From Pelagibacterium halotolerans B2 (GTDB taxonomy: Bacteria; Pseudomonadota; Alphaproteobacteria; Rhizobiales; Devosiaceae), in contig NC_016078.1 in assembly GCF_000230555.1 (NCBI RefSeq), positions 1,860,001 to 1,924,000 on the forward strand: a stretch of 64,000 nt of DNA. Direction: 5' to 3'. Below, one piece after another: positions 17,299 through 23,777 of the stretch. The notes below the pieces were generated by a model, which was given only the letters and a program-made list of their open reading frames with translations, did not search any database and was not told where the DNA came from. The position numbers and the translations under genes are program-made. How positions within the stretch are numbered: the first letter of the stretch is position 1; each line of letters starts with the position of its first letter.

Positions 17299-17619
17299 CT
17301 ACCCTTGGCGGCTCGGCACGTTCACGACCAGCCCGTCCAGATCATCCCGAATCTTGATCTGGCACGAGAGCCGGCTGGTGTCTTTGACGTCGAAGGCGAA
17401 ATCGAGCATGTCCTCTTCCATCGAGGACGGTCCGCCTGTCACTCCGAACCATTCCTCCTCCACATAGACATGACACGTCGCGCAGGTGCACGCCCCGCCG
17501 CATTCCGCCACGATGCCGCGCACCCCGTTGCGGATCGCCGTCTCCATGAGCGTTGCGCCATTTTCCGCTTCCACTTCGCGGCGCGCGCCATCGGGTTCAA
17601 CGAACGTGATCATAGGCAT
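17299..17619 (-). CDS. 2Fe-2S ferredoxin, adrenodoxin/FdVI type
   Basis: A 106-residue ferredoxin with ligands C40, C46 and C49 in ECGGACTCATC and C86 in RLSCQI. The C-terminal DDLDGLVVNVP is typical of FdVI-like ferredoxins. ATG 17619 (MPMITFVEPDG) has GGAG eleven bases upstream; an open extension before it is not conserved in this family. It is a paralog of the 8108-8437 ferredoxin and stands alone between a repeat region and the Hpt gene. The partner is unknown; P450s, Fe-S assembly and aromatic hydroxylases are known clients of this type. Confidence 0.93.
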   Translation of the reverse strand: MPMITFVEPDGARREVEAENGATLMETAIRNGVRGIVAECGGACTCATCHVYVEEEWFGVTGGPSSMEEDMLDFAFDVKDTSRLSCQIKIRDDLDGLVVNVPSRQG

Positions 17620-17763
17620 AAAAGGATGCTCCGGGGATAAATCTGCGAGGTGCCCCGGATATAGGAAAACCATCCCGCACACACAAGCGCGCCAACAAAC
17701 GCAAATGTTGGGTCACCGAACGCACAAGTCCATAGATTTTGGCGCCATTGTTGGCGCGAAAAT

Positions 17764-18156: not shown

Positions 18157-18476
18157 CACACAACCGTCACAATCACTACCGCCAGCTTAACCCTGATTGG
18201 ATAAAAAGACCCTTAATCACTGATATCTGCTATATTTTCGCTTCCCGAGGGCACACGAAAAAAGTCGTTAACGGTCTTTTAATAAAGATTTCAGCAATGG
18301 CCCCAAACCGTGTATAACTCAGGATAGAGAAGTGGCCATCGGGATCGTTTGCGGGGGTGTTTCCGCGTGTTTTCGTCCCGGCAGGCAATGCGTCCGAAGC
18401 GGTTAGCTCCCGCCAAGGTATTGCCGCAAAAGCCCTTTTCTAAAGATGCGGCGCAGAAGTAAAGAGTATTAAGAGT
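18157..18476. other. Divergent promoter region with a CtrA-type box
   Basis: 320 bases between the Hpt gene and the hendecad protein gene, AT-richer than the surroundings. It contains the TTAA-N7-TTAA box at 18268-18282 and no open frame of interest. No palindromic repeat element is present, unlike most gaps in this window. Confidence 0.6.
18268..18282 (+). promoter_or_regulatory. CtrA-type binding site TTAA-N7-TTAA
   Basis: TTAACGGTCTTTTAA matches the full CtrA consensus (TTAA, seven bases, TTAA). It is 195 bases before the hendecad protein start and 112 bases before the Hpt start. CtrA is the phospho-regulated master cell-cycle regulator of alphaproteobacteria. Control of either gene by CtrA is inferred. 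Confidence 0.55.
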
Positions 18477-21400
18477 ATGGCGAAAAAGTCGACCCCACCC
18501 AAGGACGATCCGGCAGCGCTTGCGTTTTCAGCTGTCGAAAACGCACTCAAGGACTCGGTCTTCTCGATGGATGACAAGCCCGCCCGCAAGGTAGAAAGCC
18601 AGCCGGCAAGCCGTGAACCCAAGCACCAACAGCGGCGCGAAACGCCCACCAACACCGAACGCCTGCGCGCAGCCGACAAGATCGCCGCCCAGGCTTCATC
18701 GGTCGCCAATGACGATCGCTCCACCGCCGCATCCGCGCTTTACGCCCTTCAGTCGCGCGCTTCCAATGCACCGATCTGGTTCGCCATCACCACCTCCCTT
18801 CTCTGGCTGGTCGGCGTCGGCCTGATCGCAGCGCTCCGCTACGGCCCGCGCTTCACCGAAGGGCTCTCGGTCGCCGAATTCGTCCAGAGCCTTGATTTTG
18901 CAGCGCTCGCCGCGATCATCGCGCTGCCCATTCTGGCAATGATTTCCATTGCCTTTCTGGTGCGCCGCGCCCAGGATCTGCGCCTCGCCGCCGCCTCGAT
19001 GACCCAGGCCGCCATGCGCCTGACCGAGCCCGAATCCGCCGCCGCCCACAAGATCGCCACCGTCGGCCAGGCCGTCCGCCGCGAGGTGAACGCTATCGGC
19101 GACGGCCTCGAACGCGCCCTGTCGCGGGCCGGCGAACTCGAAGTCATGGTCCACAACGAAGTGACCGCCCTCGAACGCACCTATTCCGACAACGAGACGC
19201 GCATGCGTCAATTGATCGAGGAACTGGCCAGCCAGCGCGACGCCGTCGTCACCAATTCCGAGCGCATGCGCGAGGCCATCGCCGCAGTGCATGGCAATGT
19301 GACCACCGATCTCAACGAGATCGGCACATCGATCACCGACCGCCTCAAGACGACCGGCGGTGAGATCACCCAGGCCATTTCCGATCGCGCCACAGCCATG
19401 ACGGAATCGATCGAAACGGCCGGAACGACGATAGAAACCACGTTCGAGCGCCGCGCGCAGAGCTTCACCGAAACCATCGAGGGCCGCACCGCCGACCTCA
19501 TCATGGCGCTCGACGACAGCGCCGGCCGCCTCGACGGCACGTTGACCGACAAGGCAGAAGCGCTGGCCACCGCCATCGACACCTCGACCGACCGGCTCGA
19601 TACCGTGCTCACCTCCAGCGCTTCGAGCGTCCAGATCGCGCTCGAAGGGCATTCGAGCATGGTGGAATCCGCCCTCAGCGACACGACGGGCGCGCTCAAC
19701 ACCCTGTTCGACACCAGGACCGCCGACCTCACAAACGCGCTGGACAGCCGCAATCAGATTCTCGAAGACGCCCTTGGCGCCGGCGTTGGCCGCATCGAAT
19801 CCGCCTTCGAGGGCCGCGCCGAGGCCATTGCCAGGGTTCTGGGCACCGGCGTCGAGGATGTTCAAGCCGCTTTTTCCGGGCGTGCCGAAGCGCTGGCCGA
19901 AGCTCTGGGAACCGGCGTGGCCGAGGTTCGGGCCGCGTTCGAGGGCCGGGCCGAATCGCTCGCCGACGCGTTGGGCGTGGGCGTGGACAGCATCGAATCC
20001 GCCTTCGGACGCCGCACCGATGCTTTGACCGAAGCGCTCGACCAGAGGGCTGGCGAGGTCACCGAAATGGTCGATGCGCGCATCAACACGTTGGTTAATT
20101 CGCTCGATGCTCACACGATTTCGTTTTCGGCGGCCATTGAGGAAAAATCGGCGACCATCGGCGACGTCCTCAGGGGATCGACCGAATCCATTCTCGTGGA
20201 CTTCTCGCGGCGGTCAGAAGCGCTCGGGTCCAGCTTCGCTGCCCTGGGAGAAACCGTTTCCAATGGCATCGCCAGCCGCGCCGAAGAGGCCGAGGCAACG
20301 CTCAGCCGGATCACCAATCGCCTGGACGAAACCTTCTCGATCCAGTCCAACGCCCTCCAGAGCCAGATCGAATCCATGAGCCTGCGCCTCGACGGCGCGC
20401 TCGAGGAATCGACCGAGCGGACGCGCGACGCGCTGACGCGTGCGGGTACCGATACGCTGGCCCAGCTCAATGCGCGCGTCGATGAAATCTCGGTCATCCT
20501 CGACAGCCGCATCGGACAGGTCGATACCATCGTGGGCGAAAAGGGCGAAAAGCTCATTTCCTCGCTCGACGCCCACACCTCCGAGATCGCCGACCGCTCC
20601 AACCGGCTCGAAACCCTGCTCGACGACAAGGGCCGCGCCCTGGCGAGCGCTCTTGAAACCGGCGGTGAAAGCTTCGGCGCCATGGCCGACGCCAAGACCG
20701 CGGCCCTCACCGAGGCTCTCGACGCGCGTGCGGAAGCCATCACATCGGCTGTCGACCTGCGCACCGATGCCCTGTCTGCGGCGCTCGACACGCGCGCCGA
20801 CGCGCTCAATTCAAGCCTCGACATCCGCACCGAAGCGCTCACATCGGCCTTTGACGGTCGTGCCGAGCAGATCGGCGCCGCCCTTGACGGCCGCGCCGAG
20901 GAAATCGCATCGGCCATTGAAAGCCGCACGAGCAATCTGACGTCGGCCATCGACAGCCGGGCCGAGCAGCTTGCTTCCGCGCTGGACGGGCGCACCGAGA
21001 CCTTTACATCCGCCCTCGATGGGCGCACCGAGCAGTTCACATCGGCCCTCGACACCCGCAGCGAGCAGCTCACCTCCGCCCTCGACGCGCGCACGGCACA
21101 GCTCGATACCGCACTGTCGGCCCGCACCACCCAGCTCGACGACACCCTGGCCGAGCGCGCCAACGCCATGAATTCGATGCTCGACATCACATCGAGCCAG
21201 CTTTCCGAGACCCTGACAGAGCGCACCCGCTATATGGGCGGGGTGATCGACGAATCCGCCGAACGCCTGGAACGCTCGATCGCCGAGCGGGCGCGCGGTC
21301 TCGAAGTATTGCTGGACGAGAAGTCCCGCCACATGGCGGAATCCATTTCCGGCCGGACCAGCGAACTGACCACCGCCGTCGATGCCTCGGGCGAGCGCAT

Positions 21401-23777
21401 CCGCGCCACGATCGACGGCAGCCTGGTCAATGTAACCGAGACCATGGAAACCCGTTCGAGCCAGGTGTCCGAGCTCATCGAAAGCAAGGTGGCCGAACTC
21501 AACTCCAATATCGGCCGCGAAATCGACGCCGCCGTCGACAAGATCAGCGGCGCGGAATCGGGCGTAACCGCCAGGATCGGCGAGGCGGCCTCCTCGGTCA
21601 GCCAGAGCGCGCGCGATGCGGCGGACCTTGTGGAATCGCGCCTCACCGAAGCACGCAGCGCCATCACCGAGATGGTGGACGATCGCCTCGGCACCCTGCC
21701 CGAAGCGATCACTACCCGCGCCGAAATCACCGCCGAGCGTCTGGCCGGTCTCAACGAGGCGATCCACGGCACGATCACCGATTCCATGCGCGACCTCGAA
21801 AGCGGTGCCGACCGGATCGAATCCACCCTCACGGGCTCGATCCACAGCGCCATCGGCCAGTCCATGTCCGACCTCGAATCCGGCGCCAGCCGCATCGAGG
21901 AGGTGCTCAACGACAAGCTGGCCAACGTCACCGCCAATATCTCGGCCGACGTCGAACAGACGGCGATGCGCATGGATGCTGTGGTCCGCAAGGCCATGGA
22001 AGAGCTCAAGGTGGCCTCGGTCCATATCGAGGATCTCGTGGAAGTGCGCGCCGTCGCTACGGCGGACGAGCTTGGCCGCAAGGCCTCCGAAATCAACAGG
22101 ATCGTATCGGAACATACCGATAAGTTCGCAGAGCTTATCGACACCAAGCAGAACCAGCTCACCAACGCGCTGGGCAGCCAGACCAACCTGTTGCGCGCCG
22201 CGCTCGAAGCCAATGCCCGCGACGCCGAAGACATCATGTCGGAATCGTCCAACCGCATTCAGCACGAGATCACCGACTCGTTGCGCAAGCTCAACGACGC
22301 CAATCTTCTGCTCCAGCGCGTTCTGGAAGCCTCGACAGGCAATCTGGCCCGCCTGCAGGGCAATGTGGGCGAGCAGACGCAGGCCTATACCACCGCCGTT
22401 CGCGACGCGATGGCGGGCACTGAGCAGGCTGGCACAATGATGAGCCAGCACGTGGAGGCCCTGCAGAACACCATGTCTGCAATGCTTGCGCAGTTCGGTG
22501 AGCTTTCGGGCAAGCTGGATTCGGAAACTGCCGGATTCACCGATGCCGCGGCGAACCTTGCCGAAGTGTCGAACAGCACGATGGACACGCTGGAAAACCG
22601 CCGCGGGGCCATGGAATCGCTCGCCGAGGGCTTTGCGGTCCGGACCGAGGAAATCGATGGTCGCCTGCGCAGCTTCGCCCAGTCGATCGCCGAGACCGTC
22701 AACCAGACCGAGCGCCGCCTCATCGCCGCCCGCAAGGCCATGGAAGAGGCCCTTGCCTCGACATCGGATGCCGTCACCGGCCAGATTTCGACAATCGGCG
22801 ACCTGGCTTCGGGCGAGGGCCAGCGCGCCAGCGACGCCCTGCGCCAGACCCAGGCCGATCTGCTCGCCGACATCGAGCGCGCTTACGCCGACGCCACCCG
22901 CCGCTTTGGCGATACCGCCGACGCCATGCGCATGACCGCCTCCCAGCTCGGCCAGGAACTCGAAGCGACCCGCAACGAGCTGCAGCGCTCCGTACTCGAC
23001 CTGCCCGAGGAGACCCGCGCCAGTGCCGCCGCGATGCGCCGCGTGGTTGCCGAACAGATCGAGGCCCTGTCCGAACTCAATGCCATCGTGCGCGCTCAGC
23101 CGGGCACCCATGAGGTATCGGGCCGCTCGACCCCGCGCGCACCCTCGGCACGGCTCGCCGCTGCCGAACCGGTCCGTCGCGCCGAGTCCGCGCCCCAGCC
23201 CGCGCGCCCTGCCCCAAATCGGCAGCCCGAACCTGCGCGCCAGCAAGCGCCGGTCGCAGCCCCGGCCCGTCCGGCAGAAACGCCACGTTCGCCCTCCGAA
23301 CGGCTTAACGAAGCACTGGCCCAGTCGCGAAGCTCCCAGCAGCAGCCGACACAGGCCGCCCCCGCAGCATCTCAGGAAGGCGGATGGCTCCGCGACGTCC
23401 TGCGCAACGCCTCGGCAAGCCAGGCCGGCAACCAGCGTCCGCTGAACCTGTCGAGCCTGACCGAAGACATCGCCCGCGCCATCGACGACGATGCCCTCGC
23501 TGCTGCCTGGAACCGCTACCAGGATGGAGAATCGGGTGCTTTCAATCGCCGGCTCTACACGATTACCGGCCAGTCGACCTTCGACGAGGTGCGCCGCAAA
23601 CTCCAGCGCGATCCCGAATTCTCGCGCACCGCAAGCGCCTATATGAGTGAGTTCGAGCAACTGCTCGGCGAGGCCGCCAGCGGCCCCAACGGCATGCAGC
23701 AGACCTTTAACCAGCTCGTGAGCAATCGGGGGAAGGTCTATACCATGCTCGCCCATGCAAGCGGCCGGTTGAACTAA
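18477..23777 (+). CDS. Giant membrane-anchored hendecad-repeat coiled-coil protein
   Basis: A 1766-residue protein without a named family. A polar N-terminus (1-98) is followed by two transmembrane helices (about 99-120 and 141-162) and then a very long alpha-helical region. Residues 300-1010 are about 64 back-to-back 11-residue units of the type ALDGRTEQFTS, kept in phase with one 7-residue insertion near residue 718; between residues 344 and 1000 the spacing is exactly 59 x 11 + 7. Helical heptad-like sequence continues to about 1530. A Pro/Ala/Gln linker (1541-1640) leads to a conserved-looking C-terminal domain (about 1655-1766, ending HASGRLN). Similar proteins in Devosia-like genomes are labelled apolipoprotein- or kinesin-like by coiled-coil matches only. 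Topology puts both ends on the same side. A scaffold at the membrane or cell pole is a guess. Confidence 0.85.
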   Translation: MAKKSTPPKDDPAALAFSAVENALKDSVFSMDDKPARKVESQPASREPKHQQRRETPTNTERLRAADKIAAQASSVANDDRSTAASALYALQSRASNAPIWFAITTSLLWLVGVGLIAALRYGPRFTEGLSVAEFVQSLDFAALAAIIALPILAMISIAFLVRRAQDLRLAAASMTQAAMRLTEPESAAAHKIATVGQAVRREVNAIGDGLERALSRAGELEVMVHNEVTALERTYSDNETRMRQLIEELASQRDAVVTNSERMREAIAAVHGNVTTDLNEIGTSITDRLKTTGGEITQAISDRATAMTESIETAGTTIETTFERRAQSFTETIEGRTADLIMALDDSAGRLDGTLTDKAEALATAIDTSTDRLDTVLTSSASSVQIALEGHSSMVESALSDTTGALNTLFDTRTADLTNALDSRNQILEDALGAGVGRIESAFEGRAEAIARVLGTGVEDVQAAFSGRAEALAEALGTGVAEVRAAFEGRAESLADALGVGVDSIESAFGRRTDALTEALDQRAGEVTEMVDARINTLVNSLDAHTISFSAAIEEKSATIGDVLRGSTESILVDFSRRSEALGSSFAALGETVSNGIASRAEEAEATLSRITNRLDETFSIQSNALQSQIESMSLRLDGALEESTERTRDALTRAGTDTLAQLNARVDEISVILDSRIGQVDTIVGEKGEKLISSLDAHTSEIADRSNRLETLLDDKGRALASALETGGESFGAMADAKTAALTEALDARAEAITSAVDLRTDALSAALDTRADALNSSLDIRTEALTSAFDGRAEQIGAALDGRAEEIASAIESRTSNLTSAIDSRAEQLASALDGRTETFTSALDGRTEQFTSALDTRSEQLTSALDARTAQLDTALSARTTQLDDTLAERANAMNSMLDITSSQLSETLTERTRYMGGVIDESAERLERSIAERARGLEVLLDEKSRHMAESISGRTSELTTAVDASGERIRATIDGSLVNVTETMETRSSQVSELIESKVAELNSNIGREIDAAVDKISGAESGVTARIGEAASSVSQSARDAADLVESRLTEARSAITEMVDDRLGTLPEAITTRAEITAERLAGLNEAIHGTITDSMRDLESGADRIESTLTGSIHSAIGQSMSDLESGASRIEEVLNDKLANVTANISADVEQTAMRMDAVVRKAMEELKVASVHIEDLVEVRAVATADELGRKASEINRIVSEHTDKFAELIDTKQNQLTNALGSQTNLLRAALEANARDAEDIMSESSNRIQHEITDSLRKLNDANLLLQRVLEASTGNLARLQGNVGEQTQAYTTAVRDAMAGTEQAGTMMSQHVEALQNTMSAMLAQFGELSGKLDSETAGFTDAAANLAEVSNSTMDTLENRRGAMESLAEGFAVRTEEIDGRLRSFAQSIAETVNQTERRLIAARKAMEEALASTSDAVTGQISTIGDLASGEGQRASDALRQTQADLLADIERAYADATRRFGDTADAMRMTASQLGQELEATRNELQRSVLDLPEETRASAAAMRRVVAEQIEALSELNAIVRAQPGTHEVSGRSTPRAPSARLAAAEPVRRAESAPQPARPAPNRQPEPARQQAPVAAPARPAETPRSPSERLNEALAQSRSSQQQPTQAAPAASQEGGWLRDVLRNASASQAGNQRPLNLSSLTEDIARAIDDDALAAAWNRYQDGESGAFNRRLYTITGQSTFDEVRRKLQRDPEFSRTASAYMSEFEQLLGEAASGPNGMQQTFNQLVSNRGKVYTMLAHASGRLN
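19374..21506 (+). repeat. 33-bp tandem repeat array encoding 11-residue units
   Basis: The coding DNA for residues 300-1010 is a diverged array of 33-bp units. Units near 20820-21110 are nearly identical in protein (ALDGRTETFTS, ALDGRTEQFTS, ALDTRSEQLTS). Units near 19770-20035 form a higher-order 22-residue repeat, in which ALGxGVxxxxx alternates with AFxGRAExLAx about four times (66-bp period). Confidence 0.85.

Follow-up and report, generated by a model that had tools for sequence, protein, structure and literature searches.

The locus described here, in Pelagibacterium halotolerans B2, joins a giant coiled-coil gene of the growth pole ring family (gpr/rgsE) to a divergent gene for a histidine phosphotransfer (Hpt) protein, and we put at roughly 75% the probability that it is a growth-pole scaffold gene with a ShpA-like Hpt neighbour, switched by CtrA through the CtrA-type boxes between them. 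It lies in a 64,000-nucleotide stretch of contig NC_016078.1 (positions 1,860,001 to 1,924,000, forward strand), referred to as the window, within a genome of 3.95 Mb in two contigs. Our analysis documents the family of the giant protein, the synteny of the pair, the conservation of the motif and the presence of a CtrA gene in the same genome (426 bits against a cut-off of 350). Direct control of gpr by CtrA is likely judging from these sequence comparisons, and the odds for a functional tie between Hpt and GPR seem about even. As far as our literature searches reach, the adjacency of Hpt and gpr with candidate CtrA sites between them in most families sampled appears to be new.

The giant protein is almost certainly a homologue of GPR of Agrobacterium tumefaciens and RgsE of Sinorhizobium meliloti, to which we likened it by their descriptions, since it shares their architecture, has conserved N- and C-terminal domains and belongs to a family distributed in single copy. 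An earlier sequence-only reading of this DNA had described 1766 residues with two transmembrane helices and hendecads, and this was borne out by two N-terminal hydropathy peaks and by a Fourier period of hydrophobicity of 3.664 residues, equal to 11/3. Its statement that no named family covers the protein had to be abandoned, as Pfam Apolipoprotein (PF01442) matches in nine stretches along most of the protein (180 bits; cut-off 90) and the GPR/RgsE family accommodates the whole. GPR has been described as a protein of 2115 aa that has two transmembrane domains near its N-terminus, a continuous helix of 1700 residues and PF01442 domains, and whose C-terminal region is required for function (PMC8262873); RgsE has 2089 aa, 42% identity to GPR and homologues in all Rhizobiales families (PMC7327166). 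The window protein resembles both (loci Atu1348 and SMc00190) in its two N-terminal transmembrane helices, its long PF01442-repeat helix, its very large size and a proline-rich stretch, which in GPR as here precedes the C-terminus, but is shorter than either. Other sources name it, among other things, 'apolipoprotein A1/A4/E domain-containing protein' or 'Kinesin-like protein'. Atu1348 and SMc00190 themselves were not recognised among the matches listed, where the nearest named relatives were loci of Rhizobium, Neorhizobium and Ciceribacter.

An N-terminal block is common to the window protein and seven homologues from other genomes, and a C-terminal block to six of these seven, the remaining one (L062) running past the end of its locus. 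The C-terminal domain reaches 67% mean column identity over 27 aligned sequences and was matched (phmmer, E up to 1) in 71 of the 72 named open reading frames (ORFs) with a stop inside the locus. It was modelled as helical (predicted local distance difference test, pLDDT, 83; predicted template modelling score, pTM, 0.76), and the model had no convincing match among solved structures. With the N-terminal profile, a single match each was obtained in 119 of 121 genomes that sampled the order Hyphomicrobiales evenly and in all 107 of good quality; outside the order 20 of 187 genomes of the class matched, more weakly. The relatives GPR and RgsE form a ring, a six-focus one in this family, at the growing pole, their loss leads to round cells and their excess to extra poles or branches, and a role as pole scaffold has been proposed from these experiments (PMC8262873; PMC7327166). 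A pole or septum scaffold had been suggested for the window protein as well; the pole agrees with what was proposed for its relatives, whereas the septum is less likely, since both relatives are reported to sit at the growing pole and not at the septum (PMC7327166).

The pairing of this gene with a divergent Hpt gene, for which the sequence-only reading had proposed a synteny search across Devosiaceae, extends far beyond that family. The Hpt query matched 30 of 31 genomes (this one and 30 relatives); one weak match, on another contig than that genome's gpr N-terminus (L045), was set aside, and in all 29 loci tested (L016-L044) Hpt was divergent to the gpr N-terminus, with a 2Fe-2S ferredoxin gene behind it in 27. 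A second set, the named loci, consisted of the best 80 of at least 519 relatives of the giant protein, of which 79 were fetched and assigned by hand, after their record titles, to Devosiaceae, unknown or other groups. The gpr N-terminus was present in 76 of these (L082, L128 and L134 were dropped), and a divergent Hpt gene lay upstream in 70; in L104 it has another orientation, L130 is cut short, and no Hpt was found upstream of gpr at the threshold used in L123, L131, L135 and L138. When one genome was taken from each of 50 other Hyphomicrobiales families, divergent Hpt stood beside gpr in 42 and a ferredoxin match was found in 44; this sample used the first listed genome per family (the second in f4, where the first match sat at a contig edge) and left out Devosiaceae and f162, which gave no match. 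Outside the order, 4 of 10 loci hand-picked from 20, one of which (L250) has almost no upstream DNA, showed divergent Hpt by the gpr N-terminus, so the pair is probably older than the order. These four are L251, L253, L255 and L258; the genes outside the order that match the gpr N-terminus have open frames of 723-881 aa.

The adjacency might be due to ancestral gene order only, without any functional tie, and we consider this possible, if somewhat improbable. The ferredoxin gene is conserved beside the pair too, and therefore the whole block may simply be stable; in addition, no published link between Hpt and gpr was found in the literature searched. On the other hand, several Devosia keep Hpt next to gpr while their ferredoxin match is about 2.9 kb away from hpt, and of the four pairs outside the order just one has a ferredoxin match. 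In their main text, the papers on GPR and RgsE mention neither Hpt nor CtrA (PMC8262873; PMC7327166).

The Hpt gene itself was confirmed as an ORF with a match to Pfam PF01627 (31.6 bits; cut-off 24.6), and its product keeps the phospho-histidine in the motif LHTLKGAAQGVGA, as judged from the histidine column of the alignment. Three Hpt domains were found in this genome with Pfam; two lie within frames of 733 and 738 aa, and only the window Hpt stands alone. Among solved chains, the best match to the Hpt family profile was 2ooc_A (E 6.5e-12; next 6e-5), which we take to be Caulobacter ShpA, and a 78-residue fragment of 2ooc, searched in this one direction against the genome, found the window Hpt first (1.5e-5; next 0.09). 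The likeness has limits, since identity is only 36% over about 66 residues and since some gpr-linked copies have lost the histidine. The ShkA-ShpA-TacA relay takes part in forming the stalk and in cell-cycle morphogenesis (PMC7010744), and PMC5590869 refers to a crystal paper on ShpA.

Among 101 aligned gpr-linked Hpt copies, the phospho-histidine column holds histidine in 85, a gap in one (L110) and another residue in 15. These 15 losses represent 13 distinct loci, because the samples overlap (L032 with L101 and L035 with L092 are apparently the same genomes). Seven of the 13 are isolates of Ciceribacter, Peteryoungia, Rhizobium or other Rhizobiales (L103, L105, L106, L108, L117, L127 and L139), in which the V/I-GA motif is kept; the rest are Devosiaceae, metagenome-assembled genomes (MAGs) or unassigned. 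Among the Hpt segments displayed for the family sample, that of L205 (same genome as L043) lacks the histidine and that of L230 ends before it. The ratio of nonsynonymous to synonymous differences (pN/pS) was 0.04 to 0.56 in six histidine-less pairs and 0.08 to 0.55 in nine histidine-bearing pairs, with some pS values near saturation and the result covering only the tested pairs. The tested histidine-less pairs, among them pairs from the seven isolates, are thus under purifying selection, and the Hpt gene is therefore kept in those lineages. The apparently repeated loss of the phospho-histidine under continued selection offers a testable case of a phosphorelay part being repurposed.

Between the two genes, a perfect TTAA-N7-TTAA site was found at exactly the coordinates given earlier (18268-18282); it reads TTAACGGTCTTTTAA and is the sole perfect box in the window, where 0.07 are expected and 7 of 100 shuffles contain one or more. 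One-mismatch boxes number 5 against 2.76 expected, which is unremarkable because 13 of 100 shuffles reach 5; three of the five lie within 18202-18293. Half-sites follow each other 11 bp apart (TTAA at 18268, TTAA at 18279, TTCA at 18290), the last on a weak -35-like element, and hpt has a further box 43-57 bp ahead of its start. No consensus sigma-70 promoter was found by the scan. CtrA-activated promoters of Caulobacter and Sinorhizobium are alike in having TTAA-N7-TTAA and a half-site that recurs after 11 bp as far as a weak -35 element, but differ in that the gpr box is centred about 50 bp upstream of the presumed start. The consensus of the S. meliloti search matrix, built from five verified sites of which one has a 6-nt spacing, is TAA-N7-TTAAC (PMC3616915), and the window box reads alike on the minus strand. 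Devosiaceae also show good conservation of a GC-rich stretch (in Devosia ..CCAGCGCGCGG..), which in the window lies at about 18326-18350, immediately behind the presumed transcript start of gpr; the Rfam scan of the window, this stretch included, gave no match.

Conservation in Devosiaceae supports the box at 18268-18282 as a conserved CtrA-type site. The intergenic alignment comprised 19 Devosiaceae (this genome, 12 of the same genus and 6 others), and the box TTAAC-N6-TTAA, with a varying spacer, was present in all of them; 18 were found by the box scan, whose window missed the short locus L032, and all 19 by alignment. None of the nine TTAAC/TTAA positions varies, although invariant columns number only 22 among the 213 that are free of gaps ahead of the start-codon region (hypergeometric 2.4e-10, a figure that takes columns as independent in related, partly near-identical sequences and includes a ninth position, the C, added after the alignment had been seen). 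In the box nearer hpt, the last half-site has three invariant columns. Among the named Devosiaceae loci the perfect box occurs in 13 of 29 (0.19 expected), and other spacings from 0 to 20 bp in 0-1 loci each, except for 6 loci at 17 bp; the box is also present in all four MAG loci of unclear family.

Beyond Devosiaceae the same words recur. In the 43 non-Devosiaceae named regions, a count of all 8-mers placed GTTAACCA (21 loci, 0.6 expected) and TTAACCAT (20 loci, 0.45 expected) on top, and TTAACCAT, which is a known CtrA half-site, ranked first of its 560 permutations. The target DNA of these loci, 26 kb, contains 20 copies of it; their other non-coding DNA (25 kb) has 1 and their coding DNA (511 kb) 0. 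Of the 50 families sampled, TTAACC occurred in 41 and headed its 90 permutations, of which the runner-up was present in 20 and the median in 8; TTAACCAT occurred in 10, again first of 560, and the 7-bp spacing in 12 compared with 1-5 for the other spacings from 3 to 13. Over other non-coding DNA, TTAA was enriched 4.2-fold both in Devosiaceae and elsewhere, AATT 2.4-fold and 1.3-fold, respectively.

Several observations weigh against the CtrA-switched Hpt-gpr locus. A divergent Hpt gene was not found in 8 of the 50 families (one has Hpt in another orientation), and in one of the 42 positive ones, L230, the match is a fragment of 22 bits where a contig ends. Of the 29 named Devosiaceae loci, 16 keep TTAACC but have a degenerate second half-site; TTAACCAT or a perfect box occurs in only 16 of 50 families (1.9 expected); and in the 43 other named loci a spacing of 7 bp, seen in 5, has no advantage over one of 6 bp (13) or 8 bp (7). 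Perfect boxes in the whole genome number 29, hardly above the 25 of a reversed-pattern control, and several adjoin genes without a CtrA link known to us. The section consulted of the S. meliloti CtrA regulon paper does not name gpr/SMc00190, and the paper gives minC and minD as the only characterised division genes under direct CtrA control (PMC4433202). In several non-Devosiaceae loci, moreover, the TTAACCAT sites are about 600 bp upstream of the gpr N-terminal block and closer to the Hpt domain.

This last point, together with the second box just upstream of hpt in the window, would fit boxes that serve mainly the Hpt gene, gpr being constitutive from its own promoter and linked to hpt only by shared non-coding DNA. 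We regard this as improbable, because in Devosiaceae the best-conserved box lies directly upstream of a conserved -35/-10-like pair pointing to gpr. Still less probable is that the TTAA elements are bound by another regulator, or that they persist for some different reason as AT-rich promoter DNA. A raw box count close to its control and a spacing that varies outside Devosiaceae would suit this reading, but the top word against controls of equal composition is precisely the CtrA half-site, AATT and TATA are less enriched than TTAA, and other perfect boxes sit at classical CtrA-type targets. In 19 of 27 loci fetched for the perfect boxes of the genome, the site lies between predicted genes; among the neighbours are flgI, a CcrM-like methylase, the hemE-maf region, which has two boxes, and several GGDEF or EAL genes. 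We give practically no credence to the giant protein being a generic coiled-coil protein of another kind, since its weak NCBIfam matches stay far below the cut-offs (ZorA of Zorya defence, 31 against 190 bits; SpiroCoCo, 30.5 against 75) and since its N- and C-terminal domains, which are of GPR type, are conserved throughout the order.

For the CtrA-switched locus we infer the following course, in which binding by CtrA, the sign and timing of control and the role of Hpt are all conditional. Phosphorylated CtrA would bind the tandem half-sites and switch gpr on late in the cell cycle; through the second box it would probably switch hpt on at the same stage. Newly made GPR would form the ring by which wall synthesis is organised at the pole that grows next, so that ring material would be ready for the new pole. 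Hpt would most likely tune polar morphogenesis, acting in phosphotransfer in lineages that retain the histidine and as a binding partner in those without it. The earlier proposal that the two genes could form a cell-cycle-linked unit found partial support, at the level of sequence, in the conserved box, the synteny of the pair and the CtrA gene in the genome. No paper stating what sets the timing of GPR production was found in the parts of the literature covered by our searches.

Going further, and rather doubtfully, Hpt beside gpr might be a dedicated regulator of polar growth throughout the order, ShpA-like, co-controlled with gpr by CtrA and gating the formation of the growth pole, through phosphotransfer in most lineages and through plain binding where the histidine is lost. 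If this were true, stalk outgrowth in Caulobacter and polar growth in Hyphomicrobiales would both be outputs of a single ancient Hpt-centred module, older than the order itself. GPR has been proposed as an organiser of unipolar growth in the order of the rhizobia, and a conserved CtrA-type switch with a tied signalling protein would give a direct handle on the growth pole in the form of one 15-bp site and one 131-aa gene. The features of the locus are collected in Table 1.

Table 1. Features of the Hpt-gpr locus, in window coordinates
Feature	Position	Strand	Basis or remark
2Fe-2S ferredoxin gene, conserved neighbour downstream of hpt	17299..17682	-	Pfam Fer2; near hpt in 27/29 loci
Stand-alone Hpt protein, 131 aa	17764..18159	-	Pfam PF01627; motif LHTLKGAAQGVGA intact
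Second CtrA-type box nearer hpt, TAAAAAGACCCTTAA, one mismatch	18202..18216	.	T(G/A)AA-N7-TTAA at similar position in most of 19 Devosiaceae
Perfect CtrA-type box TTAAC-N6-TTAA (minus strand TTAA-N7-TTAAC)	18268..18282	+	Kept in 19/19 aligned genomes
Overlapping third half-site, TTAATAAAGATTTCA, one mismatch, 11 bp further, reaching the -35-like element	18279..18293	+	
Weak -35-like element TTCAGC	18290..18295	+	17 bp before the -10-like element
-10-like element TATAAC, presumed gpr promoter	18313..18318	+	First two columns invariant in 19 sequences
gpr/rgsE homologue, growth pole ring family	18477..23777	+	1766 aa; Pfam PF01442 E 4e-53; N-terminal profile
Predicted transmembrane helix 1, residues 102-120	18780..18836	+	Hydropathy
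Predicted transmembrane helix 2, residues 144-162	18906..18962	+	Hydropathy
Hendecad / apolipoprotein-like helical region, about residues 180-1560	19014..23156	+	Fourier peak 3.664 residues
Conserved C-terminal helical domain, about residues 1650-1766	23424..23774	+	27-sequence alignment; structure model

Elsewhere in the genome, the best match to mreB reached 44 bits and stayed under its cut-off of 366, which agrees with the report that polar growers of the order lack MreB (PMC9022086). The region from hemE to a Maf-like gene (L054, G000:C1:3306958-3309972) carries its two perfect boxes at 3308458 and 3308493. Because the Caulobacter replication origin adjoins hemE, this region may be a CtrA-bound origin. 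In this it would be unlike the S. meliloti origin, which is reported without CtrA motifs (PMC4433202). Two tandem perfect boxes (L056, G000:C1:3480449 and 3480466) lie 52 bp from a predicted cell-wall hydrolase, whose SleB-type match is below its cut-off. Another perfect box (G000:C1:2497260) stands ahead of the gene for a response regulator of NtrC type (L264:3351-4838), behind which comes an L,D-transpeptidase frame; with its REC, sigma-54 AAA and Fis HTH domains, this regulator is TacA-like by architecture alone.

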